DNA of 64,000 nucleotides from Bacteroidota bacterium (GTDB lineage Bacteria; Bacteroidota; Bacteroidia; B-17B0; Aurantibacillaceae): NCBI GenBank assembly GCA_030692515.1, contig JAUXZS010000020.1, positions 496,001 to 560,000 of the forward strand. The letters are read 5' to 3'. Made by a program: the position numbers and the translations under genes. The notes beneath the pieces are model-generated. The model was given only the letters and a program-made list of their open reading frames with translations, was not told the DNA's origin and did not search any database. Below are positions 8,842-29,459 of this stretch, one piece after another (position 1 is the first letter of the stretch; every line of letters begins with the position of its first letter).

Positions 8842-9318
8842 ATGCGATTTATAATATTATTTTTATTTGTTGGCTTTAGTTATTCTTGTGTTAAAAGACA
8901 GAGTAAAGACCCTATCCCTACCCTTGAATATATCGATTTTAGTTCTTCCAAAGTAAACGGTATTGACAATGGTTCATTAATTCTTGGATACGAAGATGGC
9001 GATGGTGATATTTTTAGAGATGAAACAACTAATATTCCTAATTTAATAATCAAGTTTTATTATTATAATTCAGGCTCAAAAAAGTTTACTGGCTTTTTTG
9101 ACACAAACATTTCAGATACTTTTAATATTGCTAAAATAATTAAGCAACCTGGTGATGGATTTAAAGGAAAACCAATTAAAGGAGAAATTTATATTCCAAT
9201 GAATGAGTTTAGACCAGCAGACTCCATTAAAATATTTAAGTATGTTATTTTTGCTGTAGATGAGGCGGGACATAATACAAACATAGTTATTACGCCACAA
9301 TTTACAGTTAACTATTAA
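8842..9318 (+). CDS. Small hypothetical lipoprotein
   Basis: 158 aa from the ATG at 8842; a longer in-frame reading from 8782 would run into the promoter and divert the signal peptide, so I reject it. The first residues MRFIILFLFVGFSYSC form a lipoprotein signal with the lipid-accepting Cys at 16. The mature part contains DGDGDIF (calcium-loop-like acidic stretch) and is beta-rich; it resembles small periplasmic lipoproteins of Bacteroidota without a known role. The last 11 bases overlap the convergent dehydrogenase gene. Confidence 0.7.
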   Translation: MRFIILFLFVGFSYSCVKRQSKDPIPTLEYIDFSSSKVNGIDNGSLILGYEDGDGDIFRDETTNIPNLIIKFYYYNSGSKKFTGFFDTNISDTFNIAKIIKQPGDGFKGKPIKGEIYIPMNEFRPADSIKIFKYVIFAVDEAGHNTNIVITPQFTVNY

Positions 9319-10255
9319 TTCTTAAAGCCTTAATTATTTTTTGGGCAATTAGTTTACTCATTTTAAAATTACTCTCGTGGGTCCATCCTCCAATATGCGG
9401 ACTCAAAACAACTTTATCAGAATGAATTAAATAGTTTAAAGGCTTTGGAATATTGTCGCTATCCAATTTTTCAAAAGAAACACTTTCGTATTCAATTACA
9501 TCCAAACAAGCGCCTATGACCTTACCACTTTCAAGAGCGTCAACTAGATCTTTAGTAATTAAACTTTTACCCCTTGCTGTATTAATGATGTAAATATTTT
9601 TTTTAAATTTATTAATGAAATCTTTATCTACCATCCCATTAGTTTCTTCTGTTAATGGTATGTGCAGACTGAGCACATCACACTCTTCAAAAATTTTATC
9701 TAAGCCAGTCTCGGTTATAAATTGGTTTCCAAAGCCCGAAATATATTTATCGTAAACTAAAATTTTGCATTCGAAACCAATTAATTTTTTCGCAAAACTG
9801 CTACCCATATTTCCATAACCAATAATGCCAATAGTTTTATCTTTAATCTCTATACCTCTGTTTTCAGCACGCAACCAAATTCCCTTTCTAACTTCCTCAT
9901 CTGCCTTTTTTAGATTATTAAATAACATGAGCAGCATTCCAATGCAATGCTCTCCCACTGCATCCCGATTACCTTCGGGCACACTCAGACATATAATATT
10001 TTTACTTGAAGCATAATCAACATCAATATTTTCCATTCCCGCACCTACTCTTCCAATACATTTTAAATTTGGACAATTATCAATAATTTCTTTTGTGATT
10101 TTGAATTTACTTCTAATAACAAGTCCATCGTAATTTGGTAAAATTGAAATTAATTCACTTGCGCTTTTATCCCAAAATAAATCACAATCTAACCCTGCAT
10201 TTATAAGGGTTTCTTGAAGAATTGAATGATTAGAATCTGCTACTAAAATTTTCAT
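9308..10255 (-). CDS. D-2-hydroxyacid dehydrogenase, SerA-like (probable phosphoglycerate dehydrogenase)
   Basis: 315 aa, NAD-dependent oxidoreductase of the D-isomer-specific 2-hydroxyacid dehydrogenase family. The Rossmann motif GIIGYGNMGSSFA (about 145-157), the catalytic Arg segment NTARGKSL (about 228-235), the Glu-region CLDVIEYES and the catalytic His segment SPHIGGWTHES are in the right order. It lacks the C-terminal ACT domain of long SerA, as the short bacterial forms do. 3-Phosphoglycerate is the likely substrate, but no serC or serB is adjacent, so the specificity is inference. Confidence 0.8.
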   Translation of the reverse strand: MKILVADSNHSILQETLINAGLDCDLFWDKSASELISILPNYDGLVIRSKFKITKEIIDNCPNLKCIGRVGAGMENIDVDYASSKNIICLSVPEGNRDAVGEHCIGMLLMLFNNLKKADEEVRKGIWLRAENRGIEIKDKTIGIIGYGNMGSSFAKKLIGFECKILVYDKYISGFGNQFITETGLDKIFEECDVLSLHIPLTEETNGMVDKDFINKFKKNIYIINTARGKSLITKDLVDALESGKVIGACLDVIEYESVSFEKLDSDNIPKPLNYLIHSDKVVLSPHIGGWTHESNFKMSKLIAQKIIKALRINS

Positions 10256-10693: not shown

Positions 10694-12277
10694 ATGAACC
10701 AAGAGAATCAAAATAAAACCCGCAAACGTACTTTTACTAACCCTACAACCGGAGCAAATGAAATTGGAAAACTTCCACCACAAGCTGTTGAATTAGAAGA
10801 AGCGGTTCTTGGAGCAATGCTTTTAGAGAGAGAAGCGCTAAGCACTGTAATTGATATTTTAAGTCCAGAGGCATTTTACAAAGATCAAAATAGTCGTGTG
10901 TTTGCAGCTATGGTAGCTTTATTTAACCGTTCAGAACCTGTTGATATTTTAACTGTAACACAAGAATTAAAACGCACCAGCGAATTAGAAGTTGTAGGTG
11001 GTTCATATTACGTTTCTGCTCTTACAAACAGAATTGCTTCTTCTGCAAACATTGAATTTCACGCACGTATTGTAGCTCAAAAATACTTACAACGCGAGTT
11101 AATTAGACTTAGCACAGAAACTATTAAAGTTGCTTACGAAGACGGTACAGATGTTTTTGAATTACTAGACGAAACAACAAAAAATATTTTTGAAATTTTA
11201 GATTCTAACGTGCGTAAACAGCACGATAAAATGAGTACTTTAATTACAAAAGCAATTTCAGAAATTGAAACAGCTGCCAATCAAACTGATGGTTTATCTG
11301 GCGTACCCAGTGGATTTAGCGCTATGGATAGAATTACCGGCGGATGGCAAAAATCCGATCTTTTAATTTTAGCTGCAAGACCAGGTATGGGTAAAACTGC
11401 ATTTGTAGTTTCAATGGCTAAAAATGCGGCAGTTGATTTTAATAAACCAGTTGCTATTTTCTCCTTAGAGATGAGTAGTATTCAGTTAGTAAAACGTTTA
11501 ATTTCGAGCGAAACAGAAATAGCTCAAGATAAAATATTAAAAGGAAATTTAGATAATCATGAGTTTGTTCAATTAAACGAACGCATTAAAAAATTAGCAG
11601 TAGCTCCTTTATACATTGATGATACTCCGGCCCTTTCTATCTTTGAATTACGCGCTAAAGCTCGTCGTTTAAAAGAAAATCAGAAGGTAGAATTAATCAT
11701 TATTGATTATTTACAATTAATGAGCGGTGGTCCTGATGGAAAAGGTAATCGTGAACAAGAAATTAGTTACATATCGCGCGGCTTAAAAAGTTTAGCAAAG
11801 GAGTTAGAAATTCCTATTATTGCGCTATCACAATTAAGTAGACAAGTTGAAAATAGGCCAGGAGGAAGTAAGCGCCCACAATTAAGTGATTTACGTGAAT
11901 CTGGAGCAATTGAGCAAGATGCCGATATGGTAATGTTTATTTACAGACCAGAATATTATGGTTTAGAAGTAGATGAAAATAACGAGCCCACCAGAGGACG
12001 CGCAGAAGTTATTATAGCCAAGAACAGGCATGGTGCTTTAGAAACCGTTAAATTGAAGTTTATTGGCCAATATGCAAAGTTTGCCGACCTAGATTATACC
12101 GAAGGGCAAGATATTATTTACAATCAAAATAATCCGGGTCCATTACAACAAAACAGTGATTTTTTAAGCTCCGGTACAAAAACGGTAGCCTCAAAAAATT
12201 GGGATAGAGTTGAAGAAAACAATACAGATATTGTTAAGCGTAATGATATAGAGGATTTTAAAGAGCCTCCGTTTTAA
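10694..12277 (+). CDS. dnaB: Replicative DNA helicase
   Basis: 527 aa hexameric 5'-3' helicase of the replication fork. The N-terminal primase-interaction domain (about 25-130, PPQAVELEEAVLGAML) is followed by the RecA-like domain with Walker A ARPGMGKTA (about 227-235), Walker B LIIIDYLQLM (about 333-342) and the conserved QLSRQVENRP and RESGAIEQDAD segments. The insertion points often carrying inteins in DnaB are uninterrupted. The C-terminal tail after about 460 is Asn/Gln-rich and poorly conserved. It is transcribed alone, convergent with the glycan cluster 20 bp downstream. Confidence 0.97.
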   Translation: MNQENQNKTRKRTFTNPTTGANEIGKLPPQAVELEEAVLGAMLLEREALSTVIDILSPEAFYKDQNSRVFAAMVALFNRSEPVDILTVTQELKRTSELEVVGGSYYVSALTNRIASSANIEFHARIVAQKYLQRELIRLSTETIKVAYEDGTDVFELLDETTKNIFEILDSNVRKQHDKMSTLITKAISEIETAANQTDGLSGVPSGFSAMDRITGGWQKSDLLILAARPGMGKTAFVVSMAKNAAVDFNKPVAIFSLEMSSIQLVKRLISSETEIAQDKILKGNLDNHEFVQLNERIKKLAVAPLYIDDTPALSIFELRAKARRLKENQKVELIIIDYLQLMSGGPDGKGNREQEISYISRGLKSLAKELEIPIIALSQLSRQVENRPGGSKRPQLSDLRESGAIEQDADMVMFIYRPEYYGLEVDENNEPTRGRAEVIIAKNRHGALETVKLKFIGQYAKFADLDYTEGQDIIYNQNNPGPLQQNSDFLSSGTKTVASKNWDRVEENNTDIVKRNDIEDFKEPPF

Positions 12278-12297
12278 ACTTCTTTAATAATTAAATA

Positions 12298-13248
12298 TTA
12301 ATTTTTACTTCCTGAAGTTTCATCAAGTTTTTGATCGATAACAAAATTAGGTCTGTTACGTGCAGCGTCAAGTGTACGATATAAGTATTCTCCAATTATT
12401 CCTAAAGAAATCATAATAAAAGAAGACGTAAATAATAATACAATCATTAATGATGACCAACCTGCAACCTCAACACCTGAAATAAATCTATTTAATAAAA
12501 TACTCAGAGCGTAAATAATAGATAAAAGTCCAAGTGTAATACCTACAACGCTTATCATTCGCAAAGGCAAATATGTGAAAGCAACAAAACTATCGATAAA
12601 TGTTTTTAGTTTTTTTGAGAAGGTCCAACCCGATTTACCAATTTCTCTTTTTCTTCTGGTGTAGGGAATACTAACATATTCAAAACCCAACCACATAAAT
12701 AAGGTTGGTAAATGAAAATTTCTTTCGTTCATATTCATAATCTCATCTCTTAATGTTTTATCAAATAACCATAAATCGAAACCACCTTTAGGAGAATTCT
12801 TTAGGATTATTTTTCGAACAAGATTATGATATGTATTAGAAAAAAATTTGGTGATAAATGAATCTTCGCGATTTGTTTTTTGAGCCAAAACTAATTTATA
12901 TCCTTTTAGCCAGTGTGAATATAATTGCGGAATAAGTTCTGGCGGATCTTGAAGATCTGCAGATAAAATAACGCAACAATCACCAGTAGCATTACAAATT
13001 CCTGCAAAACTTGCATTGTTAGCGCCAAAATTGCGTGATAATTTTATAACTTTTACTTTGCTTGGATATTTTGCCTGAACAATTTTTAATTGCTCGAAAG
13101 TGTTATCTTTTGAACCATCATCTACAAAAACATATTCAATTTGCGTTCCCTCAGGAAAATTCTTTTCATTCTCTAGTAATACCGGAAAAGTAACTGGAAT
13201 ATTATCTCCGTTATAATAGCAAGGGGTTATGATACTTATTTTCGGCAT
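12298..13248 (-). CDS. Membrane-anchored family 2 glycosyltransferase (polyprenyl-phosphate type)
   Basis: 316 aa. The GT2 catalytic domain has VFVDDGSKDNT and the ILSADLQDPPELIP segment around the nucleotide-sugar-binding Asp; it is followed by two strongly hydrophobic C-terminal helices (about 230-252 and 265-288). This architecture is that of GtrB/ArnC/DPM1-like enzymes that move a sugar from a nucleotide donor to undecaprenyl phosphate on the cytoplasmic face of the inner membrane. It is the last gene of the ten-gene minus-strand cluster and its start abuts the stop of the FemAB-like gene with no spacing. The sugar is unknown. Confidence 0.85.
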   Translation of the reverse strand: MPKISIITPCYYNGDNIPVTFPVLLENEKNFPEGTQIEYVFVDDGSKDNTFEQLKIVQAKYPSKVKVIKLSRNFGANNASFAGICNATGDCCVILSADLQDPPELIPQLYSHWLKGYKLVLAQKTNREDSFITKFFSNTYHNLVRKIILKNSPKGGFDLWLFDKTLRDEIMNMNERNFHLPTLFMWLGFEYVSIPYTRRKREIGKSGWTFSKKLKTFIDSFVAFTYLPLRMISVVGITLGLLSIIYALSILLNRFISGVEVAGWSSLMIVLLFTSSFIMISLGIIGEYLYRTLDAARNRPNFVIDQKLDETSGSKN

Positions 13249-14217
13249 TTATGAAATAAATCTTACTAAATTATTACTATTTTCTATTTTGACTTTATAA
13301 TAAAAGTGTGCGTGTATTTTAGCTCCCCAACCTTCTTTCCATTCACTTAAGCCAAAGTTAATATCATTTCCATCATTATTGGCAGTACCTAAGCTAAAAT
13401 ATTTTTTAACTGGTTGGTATAAATTAATTAAATTATTAAATAAAAAATCAATTGCTCCACAATCACGCCCATAATCTGTTGATGAAATATATTGGCAATG
13501 AACGGTTCCATCAAAATCCATAAGGGTTACACCTGCTGCTATTTCGTTATTTACATAAGCATTTGCCTGCAATATTTGTGAAGGGAAACGAGAGTGCAAA
13601 AGATTTATTTCTTCAAGAGAATGAATGGGCTTTGTTCCAAATTTATCTCGCAAATTCGGAATTAAAACAGAGTTCCAGAATTTTTCAAAATCGTTATCTA
13701 TTTCAACTCGAGTATTTACTTTATCTCCTTTTTTAATGCTCCTTCTTCTTCTCTCTTGAAATTTTAATTCATCTTTCAAGTCAATAACAAACGATGTATC
13801 AACTTTAACAACTTCGGCTTTAAGTTCTGCAAAAATAAAATGCTCTATATCGTTAATCGTTTTTGAAATATAATTTGGTATTGGTTTATAATAAACTTCA
13901 TGGATGCCTTGCGCTTGAAAGTAAGAAAAAAGATCGTTAAAATAATTTATCAATTTTCTTGGGTTTTTTCTTTCTTGAAGTATTAATCCACCGTAGGTTA
14001 AACCTTGATGAGAGTATACATTATTTTCTTTTCTGTTAGCAGGAAAAACACCACAAACAACCTTTTCATCCATTAATAATACCGAACAATCCGTAAAACG
14101 ATTGTTATGATATTCCATAAAATCTCTGTTAAACAAAAAATTGCTATTGTCGGCGCTCTTAATAAAATCGTTCCACTTTTCTTTGTGTTCAGCGCTATAA
14201 GGAATTATTTCTATCAC
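13249..14217 (-). CDS. FemAB/GNAT-fold acyltransferase-like protein
   Basis: 322 aa from a GTG start. N- and C-terminal halves look like the doubled GNAT fold of the FemAB/lipid II aminoacyltransferase type: QGLTYGGLIL (about 68-77), EVYYKPIPNYI, a basic RRRRSIKKG segment (about 157-165), and the C-terminal YISSTDYGRDCGAIDFLFNNLI segment typical of these proteins. FemAB-type enzymes in polysaccharide loci attach amino acids or acyl groups to sugars. Substrate unknown here. It lies 2 bp after the first propeller gene and 0 bp before the glycosyltransferase, so it is surely co-transcribed. Confidence 0.7.
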   Translation of the reverse strand: MIEIIPYSAEHKEKWNDFIKSADNSNFLFNRDFMEYHNNRFTDCSVLLMDEKVVCGVFPANRKENNVYSHQGLTYGGLILQERKNPRKLINYFNDLFSYFQAQGIHEVYYKPIPNYISKTINDIEHFIFAELKAEVVKVDTSFVIDLKDELKFQERRRRSIKKGDKVNTRVEIDNDFEKFWNSVLIPNLRDKFGTKPIHSLEEINLLHSRFPSQILQANAYVNNEIAAGVTLMDFDGTVHCQYISSTDYGRDCGAIDFLFNNLINLYQPVKKYFSLGTANNDGNDINFGLSEWKEGWGAKIHAHFYYKVKIENSNNLVRFIS

Positions 14218-14219
14218 TA

Positions 14220-15149
14220 TTAATTTTTTAATTCGGCCAATCCAAAGCCAGTTGCTCCTTGATTATTACCATTATAAAACATAAACGTTTTGTTTTTAAC
14301 TTTTAAAACCGCGCCATAACAAATCATTTCACTATCCCAACCAGTATCAGAAACATAAATACCAACTTCGTTATCTTTTCTTACCCAGTTAATACCATCA
14401 ATAGATTCGGCATAACCCATGCTGTAGGGTAAATTCTTTTTACGAATTGAGTACCACATCCGAAACAATTTTTCATCTTTATAAACCCAAGGTCTTCCAA
14501 AACCAAATTCTTCATCACCTTCAAATTCAATACTGGGTTTTTCAAGTGCGGTCCAATTTATTCCATCAATAGAAGTAGCATAACGAATAGTATGCACTGG
14601 CATTTTTTTATTTTGAAATAATTTTGTGTTTAATGTTTCCCAAGTTACTCCCGACACATACCAGCTTTTATAAATACCATTATCCTCTAAAACACTTTGT
14701 CCCGCTCTATCAAAATACTCAAGATTAGTTCTATCTAAAACAGGCACTTTACTGTACTTTTCGTACTTACCATCTTTATTCATAATGGCTAATCCCGAAA
14801 AAATATGGTAAGGCGATTGGTGCGAGCGACAAAAACCACTATAGTATAAAAAATCTTTTCCTTTTACATTAACAGCGCAAGCCGGTGTTGCTCCACAGTC
14901 GTCAAACGTTCCCATGATACCTAGATCAATAACAAATTCTTTTGGGTCATGCTTAATTATCATTGGATTGTCTGCATCTAAATCAATAAATGCAGTTCGT
15001 CCATAAAAATTATCATCAACAGTTCCGTAAAACACACGAATTATATTTTTTTCTGGAATGTAATATGGACTTGGATAAAGGGCGTACTTTTTACTCCACC
15101 AAAGACTTCCGTCTGGGTTAAAAAGTTGTCCCTTTTTTATCCATTCCAT
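14220..15149 (-). CDS. Five-bladed beta-propeller, glycoside hydrolase GH43/GH32-like protein (copy A)
   Basis: 309 aa, no signal peptide, so probably cytoplasmic. The chain contains repeated beta-propeller blades: PDGSLWWSKKYALYPSP near the N-terminus, FIDLDADNP, TFDDCGATPAC, and repeated DGINW units typical of GH32/43/68-fold proteins. The later SDTGWDSEMICYGAVLKVKNK and YNGNNQGATGFGLAEL end is almost the same as in the paralogue two genes away. Such proteins occur in glycan loci as glycosylase-like or phosphorylase-like members of unproven activity; the catalytic acids cannot be assigned by eye. Confidence 0.7.
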   Translation of the reverse strand: MEWIKKGQLFNPDGSLWWSKKYALYPSPYYIPEKNIIRVFYGTVDDNFYGRTAFIDLDADNPMIIKHDPKEFVIDLGIMGTFDDCGATPACAVNVKGKDFLYYSGFCRSHQSPYHIFSGLAIMNKDGKYEKYSKVPVLDRTNLEYFDRAGQSVLEDNGIYKSWYVSGVTWETLNTKLFQNKKMPVHTIRYATSIDGINWTALEKPSIEFEGDEEFGFGRPWVYKDEKLFRMWYSIRKKNLPYSMGYAESIDGINWVRKDNEVGIYVSDTGWDSEMICYGAVLKVKNKTFMFYNGNNQGATGFGLAELKN

Positions 15150-15171
15150 ATAAAATATTAATGATTAGTTC

Positions 15172-15924
15172 TTATTCAATAATAAGAAAAGATCTATCAG
15201 GTGTGTACATTGATCGCTCGATTTTATATTTACCTAATCCAAACACTTCCATTAAAGCGGTAGTTTCTCCTGGCATTTCAGGACAATTAATTTCATCAAA
15301 AACCAAAACACTTCCTTTAACAAGACGAGGTTTTAATGCCTCTAAAGTTTTTTTAGTTGCGTCATAAATACCAAGATCTAAAAATGCCATAGCCACAATT
15401 GTTTCAGGATGATCGATGAAATATTGAGGTAAAGTTTTTGTTACATCTCCTTGTACAAGATCAAATTTCTTTTTGTGAGGAAGAGGATTTTCCTTTTCGT
15501 GATAACCCAATACTTGTTCTAGATATGATTTATAATCTTTTGGGACCGCATAATTACCAGTTTTTAACCAAGGAGATTCTTTATCTTCTTCTTTTAAAAT
15601 ATCTGGATAACCAGTAAAAGTATCAAAACCAATTACCTTGCGACTATAGTTATATGGTTCATAAACGCCACGAAGGTTATTAAAGATTGTAAGATTACTA
15701 CCCCACCAAGTACCAAACTCCATAATAACTCCTGGGATAGGAAGAATTTTTTTATAAATTTCGTCCATACACAATACATTTGCAAGGTATGAGCTACGCA
15801 TGTATAACCCAAAATTTACAAATATATCCTCAATAGGAATTGGGCTATGTACATACATTTCTCTAAATGCTTTACGTGCTTCTAATTGATCTTGCGATGC
15901 TCTTGTCCATTCAATTTGTGCCAT
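15172..15924 (-). CDS. TylF-family SAM-dependent O-methyltransferase
   Basis: 250 aa. The SAM-binding motif I is VIMEFGTWWGSNL (about 66-78), followed by GFDTFTGYPD, then VQGDVTKTLP and the acidic segments FLDLGIYDA and VFDEINCPEMPGE that correspond to the metal-binding aspartates of TylF/macrocin O-methyltransferases. Relatives methylate sugar hydroxyls in antibiotics and surface glycans. It sits between the two propeller paralogues with 22- and 36-bp gaps. The sugar methylated is unknown. Confidence 0.8.
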   Translation of the reverse strand: MAQIEWTRASQDQLEARKAFREMYVHSPIPIEDIFVNFGLYMRSSYLANVLCMDEIYKKILPIPGVIMEFGTWWGSNLTIFNNLRGVYEPYNYSRKVIGFDTFTGYPDILKEEDKESPWLKTGNYAVPKDYKSYLEQVLGYHEKENPLPHKKKFDLVQGDVTKTLPQYFIDHPETIVAMAFLDLGIYDATKKTLEALKPRLVKGSVLVFDEINCPEMPGETTALMEVFGLGKYKIERSMYTPDRSFLIIE

Positions 15925-15960
15925 AATCTCTCTTATATTATTTTTTAATGTTTCTCAAAT

Positions 15961-16917
15961 TTAAAAATTTATTTCAGCATAGCCAAATCCGGTTGCACCA
16001 AAGCCATTACCATTGTAAAACAGGTAATTTTTATTATCTATTACAGTTAAAGTGGTGTAACACATCATGTCTTTATCCCAATCATCAACACTTTCAGACA
16101 CTTTAAGCTCGCTATCATTCCTAAACCACACTTTTCCATCTTTTGACTCGGCATAACCAGGTTTATAACTGTCTGTTGCTCTATCCCTCACCGAAAACAA
16201 CATTTTGTACAAATCATCCATTTTAAAAATAAATGGCCTTGATAAAGAAAACTCATTGGTTTGAGGTGATAAACAGTTTATAATTTCACTTTCAGAAAAA
16301 TTTAAAGGCGAGTTAGATTCTACCCGCCGAATATTTCCTACAGGAAGTTTTTTTCCTTTCACTTCTGTCCACTCACACACCCCATTATACCAAAGAGAAA
16401 AACTATTTTTTTCTTCCATCATGAAAGGTAAAGAACGTATAAAAGGGTCTTTATCTAAACGATCTAATAAGGGAGTTTGCGAACACCTCTTAAAAGTTAA
16501 TCCTTCATCATCACTCACTGCAACACCAGTAAAAAGAGAGAAACGAACTTTTTTCAATAACTGAAAGCCATAAAAATAAAGGTATTTTTTGCCATTGTAA
16601 TTCATGATGCAAGACGGTATAACTCCATTATCATCAAACATGCCATCATCACCTATATCTAAAACTGGTTCTTTTGAAACAGTAATTATTTTTTCAGGAT
16701 TATTTTTATCAAGATCAACATAACCAATTCTTCCAACATTTTCTTTATCCAAAGAAGAAAAATAAACTCTAATTCTATCATCTAACACATCCACAGTTGG
16801 ATTCATAGCATGCGTTTTTGCCCACCAAAGACTTCCATCTGGGACAAAAATTTTTTTCTTTCTTTTAATCTCCACTGTAGGAATTATTTTTTTCGATTTA
16901 AGCGTTTCATTCGCCAC
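15961..16917 (-). CDS. Five-bladed beta-propeller, glycoside hydrolase GH43/GH32-like protein (copy B)
   Basis: 318 aa from a GTG start that overlaps the end of the PhyH gene by 34 bp. It is a clear paralogue of the protein two genes downstream: PDGSLWWAKTHAMNP matches PDGSLWWSKKYALYP, MFDDNGVIPSC matches TFDDCGATPAC, and the C-terminus YNGNGFGATGFGYAEI matches YNGNNQGATGFGLAEL. Middle portions diverge more. A Lys-rich N-terminal tail of about 27 residues precedes the fold and is probably not essential. Activity is unknown. Confidence 0.7.
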   Translation of the reverse strand: MANETLKSKKIIPTVEIKRKKKIFVPDGSLWWAKTHAMNPTVDVLDDRIRVYFSSLDKENVGRIGYVDLDKNNPEKIITVSKEPVLDIGDDGMFDDNGVIPSCIMNYNGKKYLYFYGFQLLKKVRFSLFTGVAVSDDEGLTFKRCSQTPLLDRLDKDPFIRSLPFMMEEKNSFSLWYNGVCEWTEVKGKKLPVGNIRRVESNSPLNFSESEIINCLSPQTNEFSLSRPFIFKMDDLYKMLFSVRDRATDSYKPGYAESKDGKVWFRNDSELKVSESVDDWDKDMMCYTTLTVIDNKNYLFYNGNGFGATGFGYAEINF

Positions 16918-17702
16918 GATTTTACATCGTTGTCTGTTTCGCTATCATAACCAAGGAATAAATTTAAATAAGCATCATCAGAATATTTACCAGCTAACAT
17001 TTTTGGAAAACTAATTGCTTGTTTGATATATGGTTGAACATACATGTTGTTTATACCAATTCTATCATTTTGTGACTTATTATGTCCCGCTCTATGATAT
17101 AACATCGAATCAAAAACAATAGCAGAACCAATAGGTGCATTAGCACAAATTTCATTTCTTAAAATATATTCTTCTGACGGAAAAGCTTCTGTTTTTTGAC
17201 TTGCCGGCAAAATATAAGTCCCGCCATTTAGTTCATTAAAATCTTGCAAACAAAACAAAGCGCTAACAGCAAAAGGTCTTGAATAAGTAAAGTGCTGGTA
17301 AAGCAAATCGCGGTGCCATTTTAATTGATAATTGGCAGAGTTTGCACGGTTAATAATTCCATTTTGCTCACGAATAATATAATATTTCCCTAATACTCGA
17401 TTAAGTACTGCTGTAATTTTTTCGTTGAGTGCAACTTTATGCAAGAAGAAATCATCATAAACTAACAATGCTCTGGCGATGTCTGTATCATTTATTTTTT
17501 CAATTACCCCCGGCTCCAATTCATCCAACTGTTTTTTGTAAACCTCTTCCATTTTAATTTTTGCAATAGCAACTTCATCTGAACTTAAAACATTTGGTAT
17601 AATCGTAAATCCTTTGATAAGAATTTCTTCTGCATGTATTGCACTTTTATCTTCTTCTGCCTTGGTAAATTCGTTTACTCCGTAGTGTTGTATTTGACTC
17701 AT
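16884..17702 (-). CDS. Phytanoyl-CoA dioxygenase (PhyH) family Fe(II)/2-oxoglutarate oxygenase
   Basis: 272 aa. The iron-binding triad is visible: HRD with His near 130 and Asp near 132 (KWHRDLLY), and the distal His near 202 (LYHRAGHN), followed by an Arg (DRIGINNMY) for 2-oxoglutarate. The segment NELNGGTYILPASQK between them is a PhyH hallmark. In polysaccharide and natural-product loci PhyH proteins hydroxylate or epimerise sugar or acyl groups. Its 3' end overlaps the propeller copy B start by 34 bp. Confidence 0.82.
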   Translation of the reverse strand: MSQIQHYGVNEFTKAEEDKSAIHAEEILIKGFTIIPNVLSSDEVAIAKIKMEEVYKKQLDELEPGVIEKINDTDIARALLVYDDFFLHKVALNEKITAVLNRVLGKYYIIREQNGIINRANSANYQLKWHRDLLYQHFTYSRPFAVSALFCLQDFNELNGGTYILPASQKTEAFPSEEYILRNEICANAPIGSAIVFDSMLYHRAGHNKSQNDRIGINNMYVQPYIKQAISFPKMLAGKYSDDAYLNLFLGYDSETDNDVKSWRMKRLNRKK

Positions 17703-17719
17703 GACTTATAATTTTAAAT

Positions 17720-18394
17720 TTATTTGATACCAAACTTATCATAAATACTTAATTCGTCAGGCTTTGAAGGCGTTCCTTTAAACAATTTACCATCACCTGT
17801 ATCTTTTACTATTAAACACCCTGCTCCTATCAAACAATCTTTTCCAATATTAATGTTATTACCAACTGTAGAATTTACGCCCATAAAAGTATAATCACCT
17901 ACTGTACAAAAACCACTTATTACAACGTGCGACGAAATAAATAAATGATTACCTAATACAGAATGATGACCAATGTGATTACCACTCCATAAAACAATAT
18001 TAGATCCCATTTTCACAAATGGTTGAACCGTATTATCTTCAAAAATAAAAATATTATCACCCATAGTTACATTTCTCCAAACGAAAGACCGTGAGCTTAT
18101 GTAATTAGCAAGAGTATATCCTTTTTGCTTTGCATCATTATAAAAATTTTCTCTAGTACGATTTAAGGTATTATAAACTAAAGCAATGTGCATTTCAAAT
18201 TGATTAGTGGGATATAATTTTTCAATATCCTCATAAGGCACAACTGGCAAGCCAAATAATGTATCTTTTTTAAGAAACTCCTTATTTACAGTAAAAGCGA
18301 CTACTTCATATTCAGAATCGTGAGTGAAAAGCTCGTAGGCAACTTCTGCAAATGCACTATCTCCAAATAAAATTAATTTTTTTGATTTATTCAT
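17720..18394 (-). CDS. NeuD/PglD-like sugar O- or N-acyltransferase
   Basis: 224 aa. An N-terminal Rossmann-like domain (GDSAFAEVAYELF, about 9-21) that binds the nucleotide sugar is followed by a left-handed beta-helix of hexapeptide repeats (VTMGDNIFIFEDNTVQPFV onwards, about 110-200) that binds acetyl-CoA. A catalytic-type His is present in GNHIGHHSVLGNHL. Relatives acetylate amino or hydroxyl groups on sialic acid, bacillosamine or perosamine. Here no aminotransferase is in the cluster, so O- or N-acylation is open. Confidence 0.8.
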   Translation of the reverse strand: MNKSKKLILFGDSAFAEVAYELFTHDSEYEVVAFTVNKEFLKKDTLFGLPVVPYEDIEKLYPTNQFEMHIALVYNTLNRTRENFYNDAKQKGYTLANYISSRSFVWRNVTMGDNIFIFEDNTVQPFVKMGSNIVLWSGNHIGHHSVLGNHLFISSHVVISGFCTVGDYTFMGVNSTVGNNINIGKDCLIGAGCLIVKDTGDGKLFKGTPSKPDELSIYDKFGIK

Positions 18395-18400
18395 AACAAA

Positions 18401-19132
18401 TTATCTTTTAACAACTAAAATATCTTCTCGGCGATTAGCCATTGGTAAATCATTCGATTGAGGCATAACATATGCTTCGCAACCAAACCTACGCAACCTA
18501 GTAATAATCGCTAATACAATTGTATCATCCATTTTTTGATCACGATTTTCGTGTGCTGTTGAACCCTTTACTTGATTATTGTTTTGTAAAAATTGTTTTC
18601 CTTCCTCAGAATTTAAAAATCTGTCGCGCTTATCGATATTTGGAATATCACCAATTAAAAAATGTCCTCCGGCTTTTAAAAGATTTACCGATTGATGAAT
18701 AAAATCATATAAATTATCGTTAGCAAACACATAAAAAATTACACTGTAGCATAAAACATAATCAACTTTACCTATATACTTATTTAATCTATCATCATTA
18801 AAGGGGAATTTTCCGGCAAGCTTAATTATCTTATCGCTTGAAGGCAAATCTTGTATCATTTCTTCAGAATCAATTAAAATTAAAGTGTGATTGTTTTTCT
18901 TACAAACATCAATTAATTCAAAAGTCAATTCATCGCAACCGCATCCAATATCTACAATTACCTTATTGGTAGTATTATAAATTGGAAGTTTAACATTAAT
19001 ATCATTTAGGATTATTTTAGAAAAGCCTTTTCGGTATGAATCGGGAAACCCAATTTTTTCTGAAGCGGAAAGGCTCTTATCAGAAGCCATTTTTTTAAAA
19101 TCATCAAAATTTAACTCTTTATTCGAACTCAT
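18401..19132 (-). CDS. Class I SAM-dependent methyltransferase
   Basis: 243 aa. Motif I is VIVDIGCGCDELTF (about 57-70), with an acidic motif II LILIDSEEMI and the post-motif region DYVLCYSVIFYV and NLLKAGGHFLIGDIP giving the later motifs. Substrate cannot be deduced; position in the cluster suggests a sugar or lipid carrier-linked intermediate. It is 6 bp upstream of the acyltransferase gene and 41 bp after the cupin gene, in one transcript. Confidence 0.75.
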   Translation of the reverse strand: MSSNKELNFDDFKKMASDKSLSASEKIGFPDSYRKGFSKIILNDINVKLPIYNTTNKVIVDIGCGCDELTFELIDVCKKNNHTLILIDSEEMIQDLPSSDKIIKLAGKFPFNDDRLNKYIGKVDYVLCYSVIFYVFANDNLYDFIHQSVNLLKAGGHFLIGDIPNIDKRDRFLNSEEGKQFLQNNNQVKGSTAHENRDQKMDDTIVLAIITRLRRFGCEAYVMPQSNDLPMANRREDILVVKR

Positions 19133-19173
19133 TATGCAATTTTATTTATTTAAAATTAACTATAAATTTTCAG

Positions 19174-19584
19174 CTATTTATAATCTAAATAATCTTCGTA
19201 GTTTCTAATATAATCCTCCTCGCTATATTCGTGAGAAGCTAAAACAAGACAAATTGAACCCGACGAAAAATTGATTTCAGAGGCCCAAATTCCTGGTACA
19301 ATGTGAAGCCCTACATTTGGACTTCTTAACATAATAGTTCTCTTTGATTTCCCATCATCTAACAACACCTCAAAAGAACCACTAACGGCAACTAATAATT
19401 GATGACACTCCTTATGGGCATGCGCTCCGCGAGACTCACCACCCGGAATATCGTATAAATAAAAAATTCTTTTAATTGCAAATGAAATTTCTGCATTATT
19501 ATTTAATGCTGTAATATGGCCACTTCTATCGCCTATTTGAGGCAAATTAATAAGATTGCAATCGTTTACACTAACTTTTACCAT
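19174..19584 (-). CDS. WxcM/FdtA-type sugar 3,4-ketoisomerase-like cupin (copy A)
   Basis: 136 aa single-domain cupin. FdtA/QdtA enzymes isomerise dTDP-4-keto-6-deoxyglucose to a 3-keto sugar. The family core RGAHAHKECHQ (about 52-62) contains the HxH pair His55 and His57, and IFYLYDIPGGESRG plus the NVGLHIVPGIWASEINFS and YSEEDYIRNYEDYL segments match the family. Copy B's start overlaps this gene's start region by 1 bp. The usual partner aminotransferase is missing. Confidence 0.85.
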   Translation of the reverse strand: MVKVSVNDCNLINLPQIGDRSGHITALNNNAEISFAIKRIFYLYDIPGGESRGAHAHKECHQLLVAVSGSFEVLLDDGKSKRTIMLRSPNVGLHIVPGIWASEINFSSGSICLVLASHEYSEEDYIRNYEDYLDYK

Positions 19585-19982
19585 TACAAAACCCGGTTTT
19601 TAAATGTTTCAAAATTGCGTATATAATCATCATCATTATACTCTAAACTAGATAAATGAAAGCCAACTGAGTTGGTTGAAAAATTTTCGATATGGCGCCA
19701 CGTTAAAGCAGGTACAAACAACCCATAATACGAACGATTTAAAGAGAATTTTTCTTTTGTTCCGTCAGGCTGAGTGATAATAACATCAAAACTTCCACTT
19801 AACGCTATAATAACCTCGTCTTGTTTTTTATAGGCATGCCCCCCGCGTAATTCTCCACCGGGAACATCATACAACCAAAAAACGCGCTTAATTTCAAAAG
19901 GTATATGAGTTGGATTTTGAAGGAAAGTTAAATTACCTCTTGGATCAAGAATTTTAGGGAAATCAAGGATTTTAACCGACAT
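19584..19982 (-). CDS. WxcM/FdtA-type cupin (copy B, HxY variant)
   Basis: 132 aa, paralogous to the next gene: VFWLYDVPGGELRGGHAYKK aligns with IFYLYDIPGGESRGAHAHKE. The second His of the HxH pair is Tyr51 (codon 19830-19832), only one base from a His codon. In characterised FdtA, residues at this pair serve in catalysis, so this copy may have changed activity, be regulatory, or form a heteromer with copy A; the sequence does not decide. It is the first gene of the ten-gene cluster; the promoter is read just upstream. Confidence 0.8.
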   Translation of the reverse strand: MSVKILDFPKILDPRGNLTFLQNPTHIPFEIKRVFWLYDVPGGELRGGHAYKKQDEVIIALSGSFDVIITQPDGTKEKFSLNRSYYGLFVPALTWRHIENFSTNSVGFHLSSLEYNDDDYIRNFETFKNRVL

Positions 19983-20004
19983 TTTTTGTTTTCTTCAATT
20001 TTGC

Positions 20005-20144: not shown

Positions 20145-21812
20145 TTGAAACAAATTTTATTTATATCCTCGCTTTTATTTTTAGTTGCTTGTAAAAATGG
20201 GTCAAACGATACGTCCCAAAAAATAGAAGTAAAAATACCACAAGCCGTAAATTTAGAAATACAAAAAATTCTTACTGAAATTTATAGTAATTCTATTGGA
20301 GACACACTCTTAGAAATAAATAAGGACACCTTAATTTCTTACAGGTTTTTCGATAAACTAAGAGATAAAAAAAATATTCTGTTTTCTAATAAAGGAAAAT
20401 TAACCTCGTTTGGAGATTCATTATTTTTTATAATCAAAAATGCACGCTTTTATGGCCTATACCCTAACGATTATCACTATACAAAACTTGAAAAATTAAC
20501 AAAGAAATTTTATAATCAAAAGGAAGATTATTATGACGCAGCAGCACTTGCCGAGGCGGAGATATTATTTACAGATGCTTATTTAAAGTTTGGCGCACAT
20601 TTAAATAAAGGTCGTTTTAATCCAGACACAATTCTTATCGAATGGAATCCTAAAAAATTAGATACCAATTGGGTTTCAATTTTAAAAATGGGTATACAAC
20701 AAAATAATTTGAATTTAGCTTTTGATTCTTTAGAACCAAAACACGCTGGTTATCACTTTTTAAAGAAGGCTATCCGTAGTTACATTAATGAAAATGAAAA
20801 ATTAAATTGGGACACTATTTCTTTTAAAAATATTAGCGACACCTTAAAGTTTAAAGAAGACCTTAAGCAAAAATTAATTGCAAGTGGAGATTATAATGAT
20901 TCATTAAACTTAAACGACAGTTTAAAATTGGCTAGCGCGGTTAAATCATATCAGAAAAAATTTAATTTAGAACCAGACGGAAAACTAGGGAAATTAACGC
21001 GACAAACACTAGCTTTATCAAAAGAACAAACCATTCGCCAGATGGAAATGGCTTTAGAGCGTTGGCGATGGGAACCCACAAAATATCCTGAACGATATGC
21101 AATCGTAAATATTCCGTCTGCCGAAATAAATGTTTATGAATGGGATAAAAAACACAAAATAGATACACTAGTTTTAAACAGTAAAATTGTAGTTGGAAAA
21201 CCCGAAACACAAACCCCTACTCTTAAAAGCAAAATAAATTATATGCTAATTTATCCATACTGGAGCGTTCCTTACACAATAGCTTGGAAAGAAATTTTAC
21301 CAATGGTGAAACGCGACACTAACTATTTGCACAAACATAATTTTGAAGTTATTAATTGGAAAGGTGAAGTGGTTCATGATCTTAGCACGTTAAACTGGAA
21401 AAAATTTTCGAAAGAATATTTGCCAGTAAAATTTAGGCAACGAATAGGTGACGAAAATAGTTTAGGTATTTGTAAATTTAATTTTAATAATAAATATGGC
21501 GTTTATTTACACGATACAAATAGTAAGCGTTATTTTAAAACCTTTTACCGTTATCAAAGTCATGGCTGCATGCGTATTGAAAAATTTGTGGACTTAGCGC
21601 GTTTTTTAATTCGCGATGACACTATAAGATTACCTTACGACACTTTAAACGCATATTTTGCAAGAGAAGAACAAAAACAAATAAATCTGCGTAAACCATT
21701 ACCAATATATGTAAGGTATTTTACAGCCAATGTTGATGAAAATCAAAAATTAAATTTATTTATAGACATTTATCGTAAAGATGAAGAAATGATGAAATTA
21801 ATTTATAAATAA
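20145..21812 (+). CDS. YcbB-like L,D-transpeptidase lipoprotein
   Basis: 555 aa from a TTG start, chosen because it gives the lipoprotein signal MKQILFISSLLFLVAC (Cys16). Cross-links peptidoglycan stem peptides (3-3 bonds) in the periplasm. An N-terminal alpha-helical scaffold is followed by a peptidoglycan-binding domain (about 245-290, LASAVKSYQKKFNLEPDGKLG) and a YkuD catalytic domain ending in SHGCMRIE with the catalytic Cys about 475. The His partner is in YGVYLHDTN. It resembles the long YcbB form rather than the short ErfK form. It meets the convergent flippase gene with no spacer. Confidence 0.9.
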   Translation: MKQILFISSLLFLVACKNGSNDTSQKIEVKIPQAVNLEIQKILTEIYSNSIGDTLLEINKDTLISYRFFDKLRDKKNILFSNKGKLTSFGDSLFFIIKNARFYGLYPNDYHYTKLEKLTKKFYNQKEDYYDAAALAEAEILFTDAYLKFGAHLNKGRFNPDTILIEWNPKKLDTNWVSILKMGIQQNNLNLAFDSLEPKHAGYHFLKKAIRSYINENEKLNWDTISFKNISDTLKFKEDLKQKLIASGDYNDSLNLNDSLKLASAVKSYQKKFNLEPDGKLGKLTRQTLALSKEQTIRQMEMALERWRWEPTKYPERYAIVNIPSAEINVYEWDKKHKIDTLVLNSKIVVGKPETQTPTLKSKINYMLIYPYWSVPYTIAWKEILPMVKRDTNYLHKHNFEVINWKGEVVHDLSTLNWKKFSKEYLPVKFRQRIGDENSLGICKFNFNNKYGVYLHDTNSKRYFKTFYRYQSHGCMRIEKFVDLARFLIRDDTIRLPYDTLNAYFAREEQKQINLRKPLPIYVRYFTANVDENQKLNLFIDIYRKDEEMMKLIYK

Positions 21813-23060
21813 CTAATTTTTTGAAGCGACTAATTCCTTCAAATTTTCAAAATCCATTTTTAGACTTATTAGTCTTTTAAATTTCATATTATTCATCCTA
21901 AAAAAAGCTGTTCCAATTGCCAAAGCAACAACAAAATAGGCAATATTAACAGTATAAGCTGCGCCATCCATATCATACCTCTCAATTAAAATTGGCGCAA
22001 AAATTAAAGAAACAATAAAACCAAAACTATTACAATACAAAATAAGTTTCAGCTTGCCGAGTGCGGAAAAATAATGGCTAATGATTCCAAAAAAACTAGC
22101 TAATAATATCCCAGGAGAATACAACATCATTAAACGTTTAATTCCAACATATCCATTTCCAAGTAAATAAATAAAAAAATCTTCTGGTAAAATAAAAATA
22201 ACAGCAACTGCTATAAAACTAAAAACAAAACTTGCTTTACTTAAGCTTAATGTTATTTCGGATGACTTAAATGTATTACCTGTGTTTGCAACCCTTGCCA
22301 AAAGAACTGGTGCTATTCCATTTGCTATAATTAACACCGATTCAATTAATGATGAAGCAGATGAATATAATCCAACTTTTGCAGTACTTGGTAATAAATA
22401 ATAACTGTAACGATTACAAAATATATGCATGAGAACAGCAGTCTGACAAATTAGTCCGTTTACAATAATAGGTTTTAAATAAAAAGGACTGGTAAATGAC
22501 GATTTTAAATCAAACTTAAATACAGAAAGTGTTGAGAAAATAAACGCAACTAAAAAGGAAAACAGTAACGGATATAGGTATGCATTAAAAGTAAATTCTT
22601 TTAATACTAATAAAGAAAATCCCAATCCACCTAACAAAATCAAAGGTTGAATTAGATTTAAAAAATTATAAGTTTTTACTTTTTCTTTTCCTAAAATTAA
22701 AACGCAATTAAATGTATTTATGATTATTAATACAGAAATTACGTAGCCCAACCATCCATATCCCGGAACTTGTTTATTTAAGAAAACAACTATTACATTA
22801 CTTAATGAAGCAAAAATAAGAGTATATATTATGCCAAATATGTAAACTTTTTTTAAATTAAATTTTGGGATAAAATAAATCAAACTGTAACCTGTATATA
22901 TTTCGTTTACAATTTGAATAATAGCAATATTCAAAATAAAAATACTTATCTCACCTCTAGAACTAACACCTAAGTATCTTGAAGAAATTATTAAAATAAA
23001 AAAATTAATAACCGCAACCAGTCCTTTTGTAAATAAACTGTGTACTATATTTTTAAACAT
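21813..23060 (-). CDS. Oligosaccharide flippase (Wzx/MATE-like membrane protein)
   Basis: 415 aa, almost entirely hydrophobic, with about 12 predicted transmembrane helices. Ser/Thr-flanked helices and the N-terminal LFTKGLVAVINFFILIISSRYLGVSSRGEI pattern of polysaccharide biosynthesis MOP proteins. It would translocate lipid-linked glycan across the inner membrane, and is separated from the glycan cluster by the L,D-transpeptidase gene, on the same strand as the cluster. A functional link is plausible but not shown. The C-terminus abuts the convergent gene at 21812/21813. Confidence 0.75.
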   Translation of the reverse strand: MFKNIVHSLFTKGLVAVINFFILIISSRYLGVSSRGEISIFILNIAIIQIVNEIYTGYSLIYFIPKFNLKKVYIFGIIYTLIFASLSNVIVVFLNKQVPGYGWLGYVISVLIIINTFNCVLILGKEKVKTYNFLNLIQPLILLGGLGFSLLVLKEFTFNAYLYPLLFSFLVAFIFSTLSVFKFDLKSSFTSPFYLKPIIVNGLICQTAVLMHIFCNRYSYYLLPSTAKVGLYSSASSLIESVLIIANGIAPVLLARVANTGNTFKSSEITLSLSKASFVFSFIAVAVIFILPEDFFIYLLGNGYVGIKRLMMLYSPGILLASFFGIISHYFSALGKLKLILYCNSFGFIVSLIFAPILIERYDMDGAAYTVNIAYFVVALAIGTAFFRMNNMKFKRLISLKMDFENLKELVASKN

Positions 23061-26870: not shown

Positions 26871-27629
26871 TTAAATTACTCCAACATCGCTAACCTTAAG
26901 CCAGCCTTCATTTCCATTATCAAGCTTAATTAGCAGCCAGTCTCCATTATTTTCAACCACGCGAATTTTAGTACCTTCATGTAAATTAAACTTTGAATTC
27001 GCACTTGAAGTAGGTTCATTCATTACTTTAACTTCTTTAGACGTAATAATAGCAAATTTATTTTCCACCTTTGATTTTAAAGCAGAATAACCTAAAAAAT
27101 AAGTTGCAATAAATGTAACAAATAATAAACAACTTAATAAAAACGAAACTCGTTTTACAAATAGATTAGATGAATTAATAAAAACAAAAAACAACACACA
27201 GACAAGTGCAAAGGCGGAAATTGTAATCCACGCCCAAGAATCTGTTGTAAACGAGGATAAAACATTCGTTTTCACTGCGCTTATGAAAAAGTTTTCTTTA
27301 GAGTCAATTTTATCAATGGTTTTTGCCGAAGCTATTCCTAGATTAATTCTTACGTCCTCATCATTTGGATTAATCTTTCGAGCTAACTCATAATAGTAAA
27401 TAGCTTTTCCTAACTCGTTATTTCTATAATAAGAATTTCCTAAATTAAAATATAACTGATAAGATTTAAAGCCATCGCTTACTAATTTTTCATAATTGAT
27501 AATTGCCTCTTTATAATTTTTCGAGTCATACGCCTTTTCAGCTTTTTGCAGCAATTCGTTGCTAAATCCATTAATTGCTAAAGACAAAAAACAAATTAAT
27601 AAAAACAATATACGTTTACCGTTTTTCAT
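26871..27629 (-). CDS. batE: BatE: TPR and SH3-domain protein of the bat operon
   Basis: 252 aa. An N-terminal signal peptide (about 1-23), TPR repeats (about 25-100, ELLQKAEKAYDSKNYKEA and YYRNNELGKAIYYYELARKINPND), two hydrophobic segments (about 135-155 and 160-183), and a bacterial SH3 domain at the C-terminus (about 190-252, VMNEPTSSANSKFNLHEG). Last gene of the operon, 10 bp after batD. Bat proteins are implicated in aerotolerance and stress survival in some Bacteroidetes; the molecular mechanism is unclear. Confidence 0.85.
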   Translation of the reverse strand: MKNGKRILFLLICFLSLAINGFSNELLQKAEKAYDSKNYKEAIINYEKLVSDGFKSYQLYFNLGNSYYRNNELGKAIYYYELARKINPNDEDVRINLGIASAKTIDKIDSKENFFISAVKTNVLSSFTTDSWAWITISAFALVCVLFFVFINSSNLFVKRVSFLLSCLLFVTFIATYFLGYSALKSKVENKFAIITSKEVKVMNEPTSSANSKFNLHEGTKIRVVENNGDWLLIKLDNGNEGWLKVSDVGVI

Positions 27630-27639
27630 TTTTTGATCA

Positions 27640-29445: not shown

Positions 29446-29459
29446 TAAAATTATTTTTA

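Follow-up and report, generated by a model that had tools for sequence, protein, structure and literature searches.

A ten-gene exchangeable cassette of a Bacteroidota bacterium with a probable role in making and displaying a rare, decorated amino sugar

INTRODUCTION

What is made by a gene cluster that holds two cupins, two methyltransferases, two propeller proteins, a dioxygenase, and a FemAB-like protein, and none of the genes that would start or polymerize a sugar? The question is raised by ten genes in a 64,000-nucleotide stretch of a Bacteroidota genome (family Aurantibacillaceae; GenBank assembly GCA_030692515.1, contig JAUXZS010000020.1, positions 496,001 to 560,000 of the forward strand), the whole of which is referred to here as the window. 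An original prediction, made from the sequence alone, had placed ten packed minus-strand open reading frames (ORFs) at positions 12298 to 19982 and had proposed that they build and decorate an unusual glycan by way of a 3-keto sugar. The reading that we favor, with moderate confidence, is that these genes form an exchangeable glycan-modification cassette, the products of which would make a rare amino sugar that is aminoacylated, methylated, and loaded onto a lipid for surface display. Genomes, loci, and contigs are given by codes starting with G, L, and C, respectively; the genome under study is G000, and the cluster lies on its contig C66.

RESULTS

Organization and conservation of the cluster

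All ten ORFs were found at the predicted positions, and Pfam and NCBIfam scans agreed with the family names that had been given to them (Table 1). ORFs were called simply as the longest reading frames, and their starts and some small genes are approximate. Counted from the cupin end, the junctions are a 1-bp overlap (between the cupins), gaps of 41, 6, and 17 bp, a 34-bp overlap, and gaps of 36, 22, 2, and 0 bp; relatives of propeller 1 begin at the codon starting at position 16875 (GTG), and with this start the 34-bp overlap becomes a gap of about 8 bp. The G+C content over positions 12001 to 20000 (30.7 to 32.9%) is within the range of the window (27.7 to 35.9%). The family scans also bore out the absence of a nucleotidyltransferase, a dehydratase, an aminotransferase, and a polymerase from the ten genes. 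The proposal that three functions are duplicated holds for the propellers (36% identical) and for the cupins FdtA1 and FdtA2 (41% identical), which are related pairs, but not for the methyltransferases, which match different families (TylF and generic S-adenosylmethionine-dependent families) and thus do not stem from a gene duplication.

The same ten genes are present in the same order in 4 of the 40 genus genomes, namely, G000, G330 (L060), G301 (L061), and G316 (L062). The first cupin of G316 is cut by the contig end, and FdtA1 of G301, which the ORF selection had not picked up, was read separately. That three further genomes keep this order speaks against chance adjacency, and the cluster, for which the original prediction had left this to be checked, is kept as a unit. 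A search of the 40 genomes with the TylF protein returned four sequences with 97 to 100% identity, the next best having at most 49%. The TylF/CalS11-like proteins of the window and of L060 to L062 are 97 to 98% identical, compared with 73 to 94% for their cassette neighbors, an excess that may reflect strong constraint or recent exchange.

The cassette occupies a fixed chromosomal site with the order Wzx-like protein, L,D-transpeptidase, cassette, dnaB, 2-hydroxyacid dehydrogenase, and LuxE-like protein. Both flanks are on one stretch in G000, G330, G301, G302, and G314 and are split over two contigs in G316 and G307. The dnaB gene is 95 to 96% identical at the same place in L121, L197, and L203 to L205 and is present also in L060 to L062 and L065. 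The cassette is probably exchangeable; relatives hold different versions at the same spot. (i) The cassette of G302 (L065) contains FdtA1, FdtA2, YfhO, a third FdtA, a 310-amino-acid protein labeled FemAB-like by eye, a methyltransferase, an unassigned 471-amino-acid protein, another methyltransferase, a GT2 (55% identical), and FdtB; the 310-amino-acid protein has no Pfam match and no direct match to the window FemAB-like protein and is linked to it only through matches to FemAB-carrying loci. (ii) That of G307 (L063 and L197, the adjacency of which is inferred) starts with FdtA1, FdtA2, YfhO, a third FdtA, SDR, metallo-beta-lactamase, and KASIII and continues with a methyltransferase, MaoC-SDR, AMP ligase, GNAT, FdtB, and GT2. 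(iii) G314 (L121) has a shorter cassette in reverse orientation, with one FdtA, H_MT, NeuD, one propeller, FemAB, PhyH, an FkbM methyltransferase, and GT2. (iv) In G321 (L064), of which the left flank only is in view, there are two FdtA pairs, YfhO, and FdtB; the presence of two pairs, the first of them separated from YfhO by an IS1595-type transposase, reads as cassette duplication or stacking. Related cassettes with incompletely matched flanks are found in G308 and G299, and the near relative L206 holds a single FdtA followed by H_MT, NeuD, PhyH, and a propeller up to the contig end.

Sugar pathway enzymes elsewhere in the genome

RmlB (C66:309361; 455 bits, cut-off 365.1) and RmlA (C50:21748; 467 bits, cut-off 360.65) are both encoded in the genome, unlinked to the cassette. 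A DegT protein at C54:2557-3654 is, by homology, an FdtB-type aminotransferase; it shares 60% identity with the G302 cassette FdtB, the best PDB relative of which is QdtB (E value of 3.4e-131). Its orthologues in G330, G314, G301, and G316 are 84 to 86% identical, and in G330, G301, and G314 they share neighbors with the protein of the genome under study. At an identity of at least 60%, FdtB is present in 12 of the 40 genus genomes and lies inside the sister cassettes L065, L064, and L197. A relative of the membrane protein YfhO is found in 14 of the 40, which include all 12 FdtB genomes in addition to G300 and G331; the hypergeometric probability of this overlap of 12 is 1.6e-8, although the co-occurrence probabilities reported here ignore kinship. 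In the search for FdtA pairs, which covered 60 genomes (37 of the genus), all nine genomes with an adjacent pair (G316 by inference) carry both FdtB and YfhO. With RmlA, RmlB, FdtB, and YfhO found elsewhere in the genome, the enzyme set is complete but dispersed.

Judging from the relationships of these enzymes, the product is probably a derivative of dTDP (deoxythymidine diphosphate)-3-amino-3,6-dideoxyhexose. The construction and decoration of an unusual glycan, as originally predicted, is supported by these data, whereas a 3-keto sugar as the end product is not supported, an FdtB-type enzyme being present in the genome, in sister cassettes, and beside homologous modules (17 of the 19 FemAB loci described below). 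The original prediction was to be given up if the missing sugar genes lay beside homologous clusters and revealed a standard O-antigen locus. The aminotransferase does lie beside such clusters, and some distant homologues are in ordinary-looking polysaccharide loci (L136 and L287).

As to the decorating enzymes, the TylF protein matches CalS11 (PDB entries 4gf5 and 3tos) with an E value of 1.6e-61 and is, by homology, a predicted CalS11-like dTDP-sugar O-methyltransferase; CalS11 itself acts on TDP-rhamnose, which it methylates at the sugar-nucleotide stage (PMC4760980). PDB relatives of the NeuD-like protein are perosamine N-acetyltransferase and PglD, and QdtC is matched only at an E value of 8.6e-10. 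The PhyH protein has AndA, TlxJ, and EctD as weak PDB relatives. H_MT matches no family above its cut-off and belongs to a widely found module (see below).

The FemAB-like protein as a probable aminoacyltransferase

The FemAB-like protein has no Pfam match and an NCBIfam match of 39 bits (cut-off 260), and a sequence search for solved relatives returned none at E values up to 1. Its predicted model (predicted local distance difference test [pLDDT] score of 93) shows the double-GNAT fold of the FemABX kind, with Z scores of 24.1 for FemA, 22.7 and 21.6 to 22.1 for FemX, 22.3 to 22.6 for Sbb17/Sba18 with or without streptothrisamine, and 15 to 17 for MprF-type aminoacyl-lipid synthases. Lys294 is invariant in 20 of 20 FemAB-like proteins, and its C-terminal position suggests a possible equivalence to the catalytic Lys305 of FemX Wv. 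The model thus suggests a probable aminoacyl-tRNA-dependent aminoacyltransferase. There is precedent for such chemistry: Orf11, for which similarity to FemABX has been described, uses Gly-tRNA to convert streptothrisamine (PMC12945691), and the Fuc3N amine of a Clostridium difficile flagellin glycan carries amino acids (PMC5207245).

The protein might instead be an ordinary coenzyme A (CoA)-dependent N-acyltransferase that adds no amino acid, in which case the product would be a plainly acylated and methylated 3-amino sugar. The GNAT fold is also that of CoA-dependent enzymes, and sister and related cassettes (L059, L063, L064, and L197) hold KASIII, MaoC-SDR, AMP ligase, and GNAT, an acyl-type decoration that resembles the R-group genes of Flavobacterium psychrophilum (PMC6519341). 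Nevertheless, FemA, FemX, and the streptothrisamine-bound aminoacyl-tRNA enzymes reach Z scores of 21.6 to 24.1 as opposed to at most 17 for CoA-dependent GNATs, Gly298 is conserved along with Lys294 in 20 of 20 sequences, and NeuD already supplies an acyltransferase. We consider CoA dependence rather improbable.

The propellers

Both propellers match GH130 and DUF4185 weakly and below cut-off (Pfam GH130 with propeller 2, 19.4 bits; cut-off 26). The predicted model of propeller 1 (pLDDT of 96) is five-bladed and closest to GH130 beta-1,2-mannoside phosphorylases; comparison with 9fj8 gave a Z score of 30.6 and a root mean square deviation of 2.2 over 269 aligned residues. The hallmark of the GH130 family is the catalytic/phosphate motif E-D-P-R. 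In the profile alignment of the propeller family, LEDPR of 9fj8 stands opposite l-a-r-p-l, so that the GH130 catalytic residue appears to be gone, and GH130 membership was rejected for want of the motif, although the fold agrees. Asp95, Glu222, Asp281, and Arg266 are conserved in 96 to 100% of 48 rows. The sequence alignment of the family to GH130 (9fj8 and 7fip) is shifted by about two blades, with family positions 128 to 254 opposite 9fj8 positions 3 to 134 and 10 to 108 opposite 183 to 283, and the structural alignment of propeller 1 with 9fj8 is not shifted; the shift is compatible with circular permutation or mere blade similarity.

Another reading is that the propellers are GH130/GT108-type glycosyltransferases or phosphorylases that add one or two sugars, yielding an oligosaccharide. 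The folds that come nearest are those of beta-1,2-mannoside phosphorylases and of a mannoside synthase (Z scores of 28 to 31), GT108 enzymes illustrate that the propeller fold can work as a transferase (PMC8950772), and two copies could mean two linkages. This remains doubtful to us in view of the unconserved E-D-P-R stretch and of the association of the propeller with NeuD and with FemAB or WbqC, which it follows across phyla.

Proposed lipid loading and transfer

The GT2 matches PF00535 (76 bits), and its best NCBIfam match is PgfS (195 bits; cut-off 500), followed by ArnC (146 bits, also below cut-off). YfhO, an unlinked GT-C at C66:143007-145484, matches PF09586 (209 bits; cut-off 28.5), its C-terminal part matches PgfM2/PgfM1, and relatives of it lie inside the sister cassettes of G302, G307, and G321. 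The lack of a polymerase can be explained by the resemblance of the GT2 to undecaprenyl-phosphate-sugar synthases and by the presence of this YfhO-type GT-C elsewhere. A PMT_2-type membrane protein near the site (window positions 25209-26789, minus strand) was rejected as the GT-C since it has no relative in the compared loci, and YfhO was preferred for that reason. Pgf proteins of Streptococcus mutans modify surface proteins (PMC5856776), and the scheme of a C55-P-sugar synthase, a flippase, and a GT-C has been reviewed, with Wzx-type flippases in some systems (PMC8035078). GtrA flippases (PF04138) were matched in 4 of the 40 genus genomes, in 3 of them over the cut-off.

The cluster could also be the remnant of a standard Wzx/Wzy O-antigen locus, the other parts of which have moved; the sugar would then be one residue of a polymer repeat, added by the GT2 in the cytoplasm. 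Consistent with this are the scattered pathway genes of the genome and the homologous modules in polysaccharide-like loci (L136, by eye; L212, with an ABC-2 transporter; and L287, by annotation). Against it, the best matches of the GT2 are polyprenyl-phosphate-sugar enzymes, YfhO belongs to sister cassettes of this site and follows FdtB in its distribution over the genus, and neither a polymerase nor an initiating transferase was recognized among the ten genes or the scanned sister-cassette proteins; such a remnant is unlikely.

The FdtA pair

PDB relatives of FdtA2 are 5tpu, 7n67, and 2pa7. Numbered according to 2PA7, FdtA2 proteins keep both His residues of the HxH dyad and have lost Arg17, and FdtA1 proteins keep Arg17 but retain only one His (HAY or HAF) or none. 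Positions 17 and 97 and the His pair are presumably active-site positions; a literature search that left most subscription journals outside its coverage returned no paper on FdtA/QdtA active-site residues. Complementary losses were found in 10 of 10 scorable adjacent pairs (11 pairs seen, that of G316 being cut by a contig end), which include that of the archaeon-labeled L261 and which are mostly from one genus and not independent. L261 has the order FdtA1-FdtA2-methyltransferase-NeuD-propeller-FemAB-FdtB on a short contig of uncertain binning. Among 26 single FdtA rows (L061, whose partner had been missed, was left out, and L068 and L223 are probably the same contig), 23 keep HxH, 14 with and 9 without Arg17. 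Two others, L212 (HAL) and L219 (HAY), combine Arg17 with a broken dyad and show no visible partner; the last row, L247, is truncated. As the loss of Arg17 alone is common among single rows, the broken FdtA1 is the distinctive part. The residue pattern suggests a heteromeric ketoisomerase with one shared active site, which is the reading we favor for the pair; FdtA1 may conceivably be non-catalytic or regulatory instead.

A wider module with FemAB and WbqC branches

The propeller is present in 13 of 296 genomes of the phylum, including the genome under study, and eight of the others match at E values below 1e-30. A contig search with the propeller profile (A1), based on one peptide pattern, gave 79 loci from the best 80 of 567 confirmed stretches. 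Of these, 75 are outside the genus (L207 to L281); L203 to L205 are apparently contigs of G330, G316, and G301, L206 is near kin, and L223 is probably a contig of L068 and hence not independent of it. A block of H_MT, NeuD, propeller, FemAB, FdtA, and FdtB recurs, with some genes missing from some loci, in Desulforudis, Thiogranum, Nostoc, Manganitrophus, Omnitrophica, Aliarcobacter, Clostridium, Alphaproteobacteria, and an archaeon-labeled contig. This module, and not the propeller-TylF-propeller-PhyH set that had been singled out originally, is the widely conserved core. NeuD is present in 54 of the 75 loci, WbqC in 35, FdtA in 21, and FemAB in 20, ten loci having none of the four; TylF (9) and PhyH (13) are less common companions.

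FemAB and WbqC were never found together in these 75 loci, for which the chance under independence is 1.7e-7 with 20 FemAB loci and 4.6e-7 with 19 (19 were matched by the window protein using phmmer, and L237 was added by a BLAST match, also via the L065 query). The DegT protein is 40 to 55% identical to FdtB in FemAB loci (17 of 19) and more distant, 26 to 43%, in WbqC loci (26 of 35). In the propeller tree, restricted to ORFs of 285 to 345 amino acids (69 ORFs and four others, i.e., 73 rows; loci lacking one are not represented), a split with support 100/99 separates 30 rows, comprising all 27 FemAB/FdtA rows and three others, from 43 rows, comprising all 32 WbqC rows and eleven others. Fusions of FdtA to FdtB (L247, L267, and L278) and to NeuD (L237) support consecutive steps. 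The WbqC type occurs on plasmid records of Bernardetia and Rhizobium leguminosarum (pRlvE); a Leisingera plasmid record has neither FemAB nor WbqC among its listed genes. The pRlvE cluster (L285, 13538-18049) consists of WbqC, a propeller annotated as glycosylase, GNAT, a methyltransferase, and a glycosyltransferase, with a DegT aminotransferase beyond an IS3 element.

These data point, tentatively, to an unnamed, phylum-spanning pathway that would place an aminoacyl-tRNA-derived chain on the amine of a surface sugar and whose signature would be a GH130-fold propeller near NeuD. It would have two exclusive branches, FemAB with FdtA/FdtB for 3-amino sugars and WbqC, as the FemAB analogue, with a distant DegT for other amino sugars; some FemAB-branch members would have a two-gene ketoisomerase, the shared site of which would draw its Arg from one subunit and its His pair from the other. 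We hold this to be possible rather than likely, a probability lowered by the 9 of 26 single FdtA rows that lack Arg17 and keep HxH. A literature search (WbqC; propellers in O-antigen loci; FemAB with Fuc3N/Qui3N), with most subscription journals outside its coverage, returned no paper on such a pathway, and the accessible part of the lipocone paper (PMC12419801) holds nothing bearing on it.

Table 1. Features of the window, with the cassette genes first, followed by the site flanks and other gene groups
Feature	Position	Strand	Basis or remark
FdtA1, FdtA-type cupin with Arg17 and broken His dyad (HAY)	19584..19982	-	PF05523 147.6 bits, cut-off 23; residues compared with 2PA7
FdtA2, FdtA-type 3,4-ketoisomerase (predicted), HxH dyad intact, Ser at 17, Ala at 97	19174..19584	-	PF05523 176.9 bits, cut-off 23
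H_MT, class I SAM methyltransferase	18401..19132	-	Generic Pfam matches below cut-off
NeuD/PglB/VioB-type N-acyltransferase	17720..18394	-	TIGR03570 164.4 bits, cut-off 160.8
PhyH-type Fe(II)/2-oxoglutarate dioxygenase	16884..17702	-	PF05721 65.9 bits, cut-off 22
Propeller 1, five-bladed, GH130-like fold	15961..16917	-	Predicted model, structure and profile comparison
TylF/CalS11-type dTDP-sugar O-methyltransferase	15172..15924	-	PF05711 31.8 bits, cut-off 23; CalS11 homology
Propeller 2	14220..15149	-	Related to propeller 1; separate lineage in FemAB/FdtA group of tree
FemAB-like double-GNAT transferase	13249..14217	-	Predicted model, fold matches, Lys294
GT2, polyprenyl-phosphate-sugar synthase type (PgfS/ArnC-like)	12298..13248	-	NCBIfam, below cut-off
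L,D-transpeptidase (YkuD), site flank	20145..21812	+	PF03734; in 22 of 40 genus genomes
Wzx-like membrane protein, site flank, candidate flippase	21813..23060	-	Named by eye, no Pfam match
dnaB, opposite flank of site	10694..12277	+	Named by eye; identity at same place in relatives
D-2-hydroxyacid dehydrogenase, conserved dnaB neighbor	9308..10255	-	PF02826
LuxE-like acyl-protein synthetase, conserved neighbor	7795..8787	-	PF04443
TPR, von Willebrand-type, MoxR-like ATPase, and BatD-like ORFs	26871-35168	-	Reads like a Bat operon, by eye from translations
AlgX-like, MBOAT, AlgX-like trio	57431-61675	-	Two AlgX-like proteins; probably an O-acetylation system for surface polysaccharide

DISCUSSION

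From gene content, order, conservation, predicted folds, residue patterns, and co-occurrence we infer the following reactions and their order, as well as the involvement of an amino acid, an acceptor, and a flippase. RmlA and RmlB would provide dTDP-4-keto-6-deoxyglucose, the keto group of which would be moved to C3 by FdtA1 and FdtA2, perhaps as one heteromeric enzyme, and FdtB (C54) would aminate C3. The FemAB-like enzyme would then transfer an amino acid from aminoacyl-tRNA to the C3 amine, the NeuD-like enzyme would cap it with an acyl group, and the CalS11-like enzyme would O-methylate the nucleotide sugar. Further modification of the sugar or the aminoacyl chain may fall to the second methyltransferase and to the PhyH dioxygenase, and the two propellers would act on the aminoacylated sugar. 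The finished sugar would be loaded onto undecaprenyl phosphate (Und-P) by the PgfS/ArnC-like GT2, turned outward by a flippase, perhaps the adjacent Wzx-like protein, and transferred by YfhO (C66:143007) to a surface protein or polysaccharide.

Several observations weigh against this scheme. (i) FdtB and YfhO are unlinked to the cassette in this genome, and their partnership rests on co-occurrence among related genomes. (ii) The FemAB-like fold also resembles CoA-dependent GNATs (Z scores of up to 17). (iii) The scores of YfhO and the GT2 fall well short of the equivalog cut-offs for PgfM and PgfS. (iv) The GtrA flippase was sought in the genome under study and not found, and the Wzx-like protein adjoins the transpeptidase also where no cassette was seen (L122 to L124, L126, and L127) and is thus not cassette specific. 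(v) The His dyad of FdtA1 is abnormal and FdtA2 has uncommon residues at positions 17 and 97, so that isomerase activity is not assured from their sequences, and the heteromer reading is weakened by the nine single FdtA proteins without Arg17 that have an intact HxH and by the two partnerless broken dyads.

If the proposal is correct, aminoacyl-tRNA, and with it translation, would be linked to surface-glycan diversity in many phyla. Both the WbqC family and a large family of propellers ("glycosylase" or "hypothetical protein" on plasmid records) would gain a function, and the FdtA pair would make it possible to test whether an active site can be split over the products of two genes. With a fixed site and exchangeable cassettes, surface variation in these bacteria would be readable from sequence.

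The individual parts are known; in the literature searched, nothing was found on their combination, on a propeller family with two branches, or on the FdtA pair. The pathways to dTDP-Fuc3N and dTDP-Qui3N, the enzymes of which are named RmlA, RmlB, FdtA/QdtA, FdtB/QdtB, and FdtC/QdtC (PMC5560731), share with the system described here the RmlA, RmlB, FdtA, and FdtB homologues and the 3-amino-3,6-dideoxyhexose as a likely intermediate. The cassette differs by two adjacent, individually unusual FdtA proteins, by an unlinked FdtB, by a NeuD-type instead of an FdtC/QdtC-type acyltransferase, and by the additional FemAB, propellers, PhyH, and two methyltransferases. With FemABX-type enzymes (Orf11/Sba18/Sbb17) the window protein has in common the predicted double-GNAT fold, a predicted amino-sugar partner, and perhaps the conserved C-terminal Lys, whereas it is only 11 to 16% identical to them in structural alignments and occurs with FdtA/FdtB. 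The type B flagellin glycan of Clostridium difficile likewise has a Fuc3N amine with amino acids and an FdtB; its authors suggest an acyltransferase and a ligase-type gene, FdtA is absent there, and no propeller is mentioned in the accessible part of the article (PMC5207245). The five-bladed propellers of GH130/GT108 have the same fold (Z score of about 30), whereas those of the window lack the E-D-P-R stretch and are associated with amino-sugar acylation genes. Multicomponent transmembrane glycosylation systems (CsbB/GtcA/YfhO and Gtr) and PgfS/PgfM of Streptococcus also combine a GT2 resembling C55-P-sugar synthases with a YfhO-type GT-C; the system studied here differs in that no GtrA flippase was found in the genome, the cassette would make a complex amino sugar, and the cargo is variable at a fixed site. 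Finally, the O-antigen R-group loci of Flavobacterium psychrophilum are variable gene sets by which different N-acyl groups are attached to a 4-amino sugar, and they include a PglD-type acyltransferase (PMC6519341), from which the cassette would be set apart by its 3-amino sugar, its predicted aminoacyl route, and an export by Und-P and YfhO in place of a Wzx/Wzy polymer.

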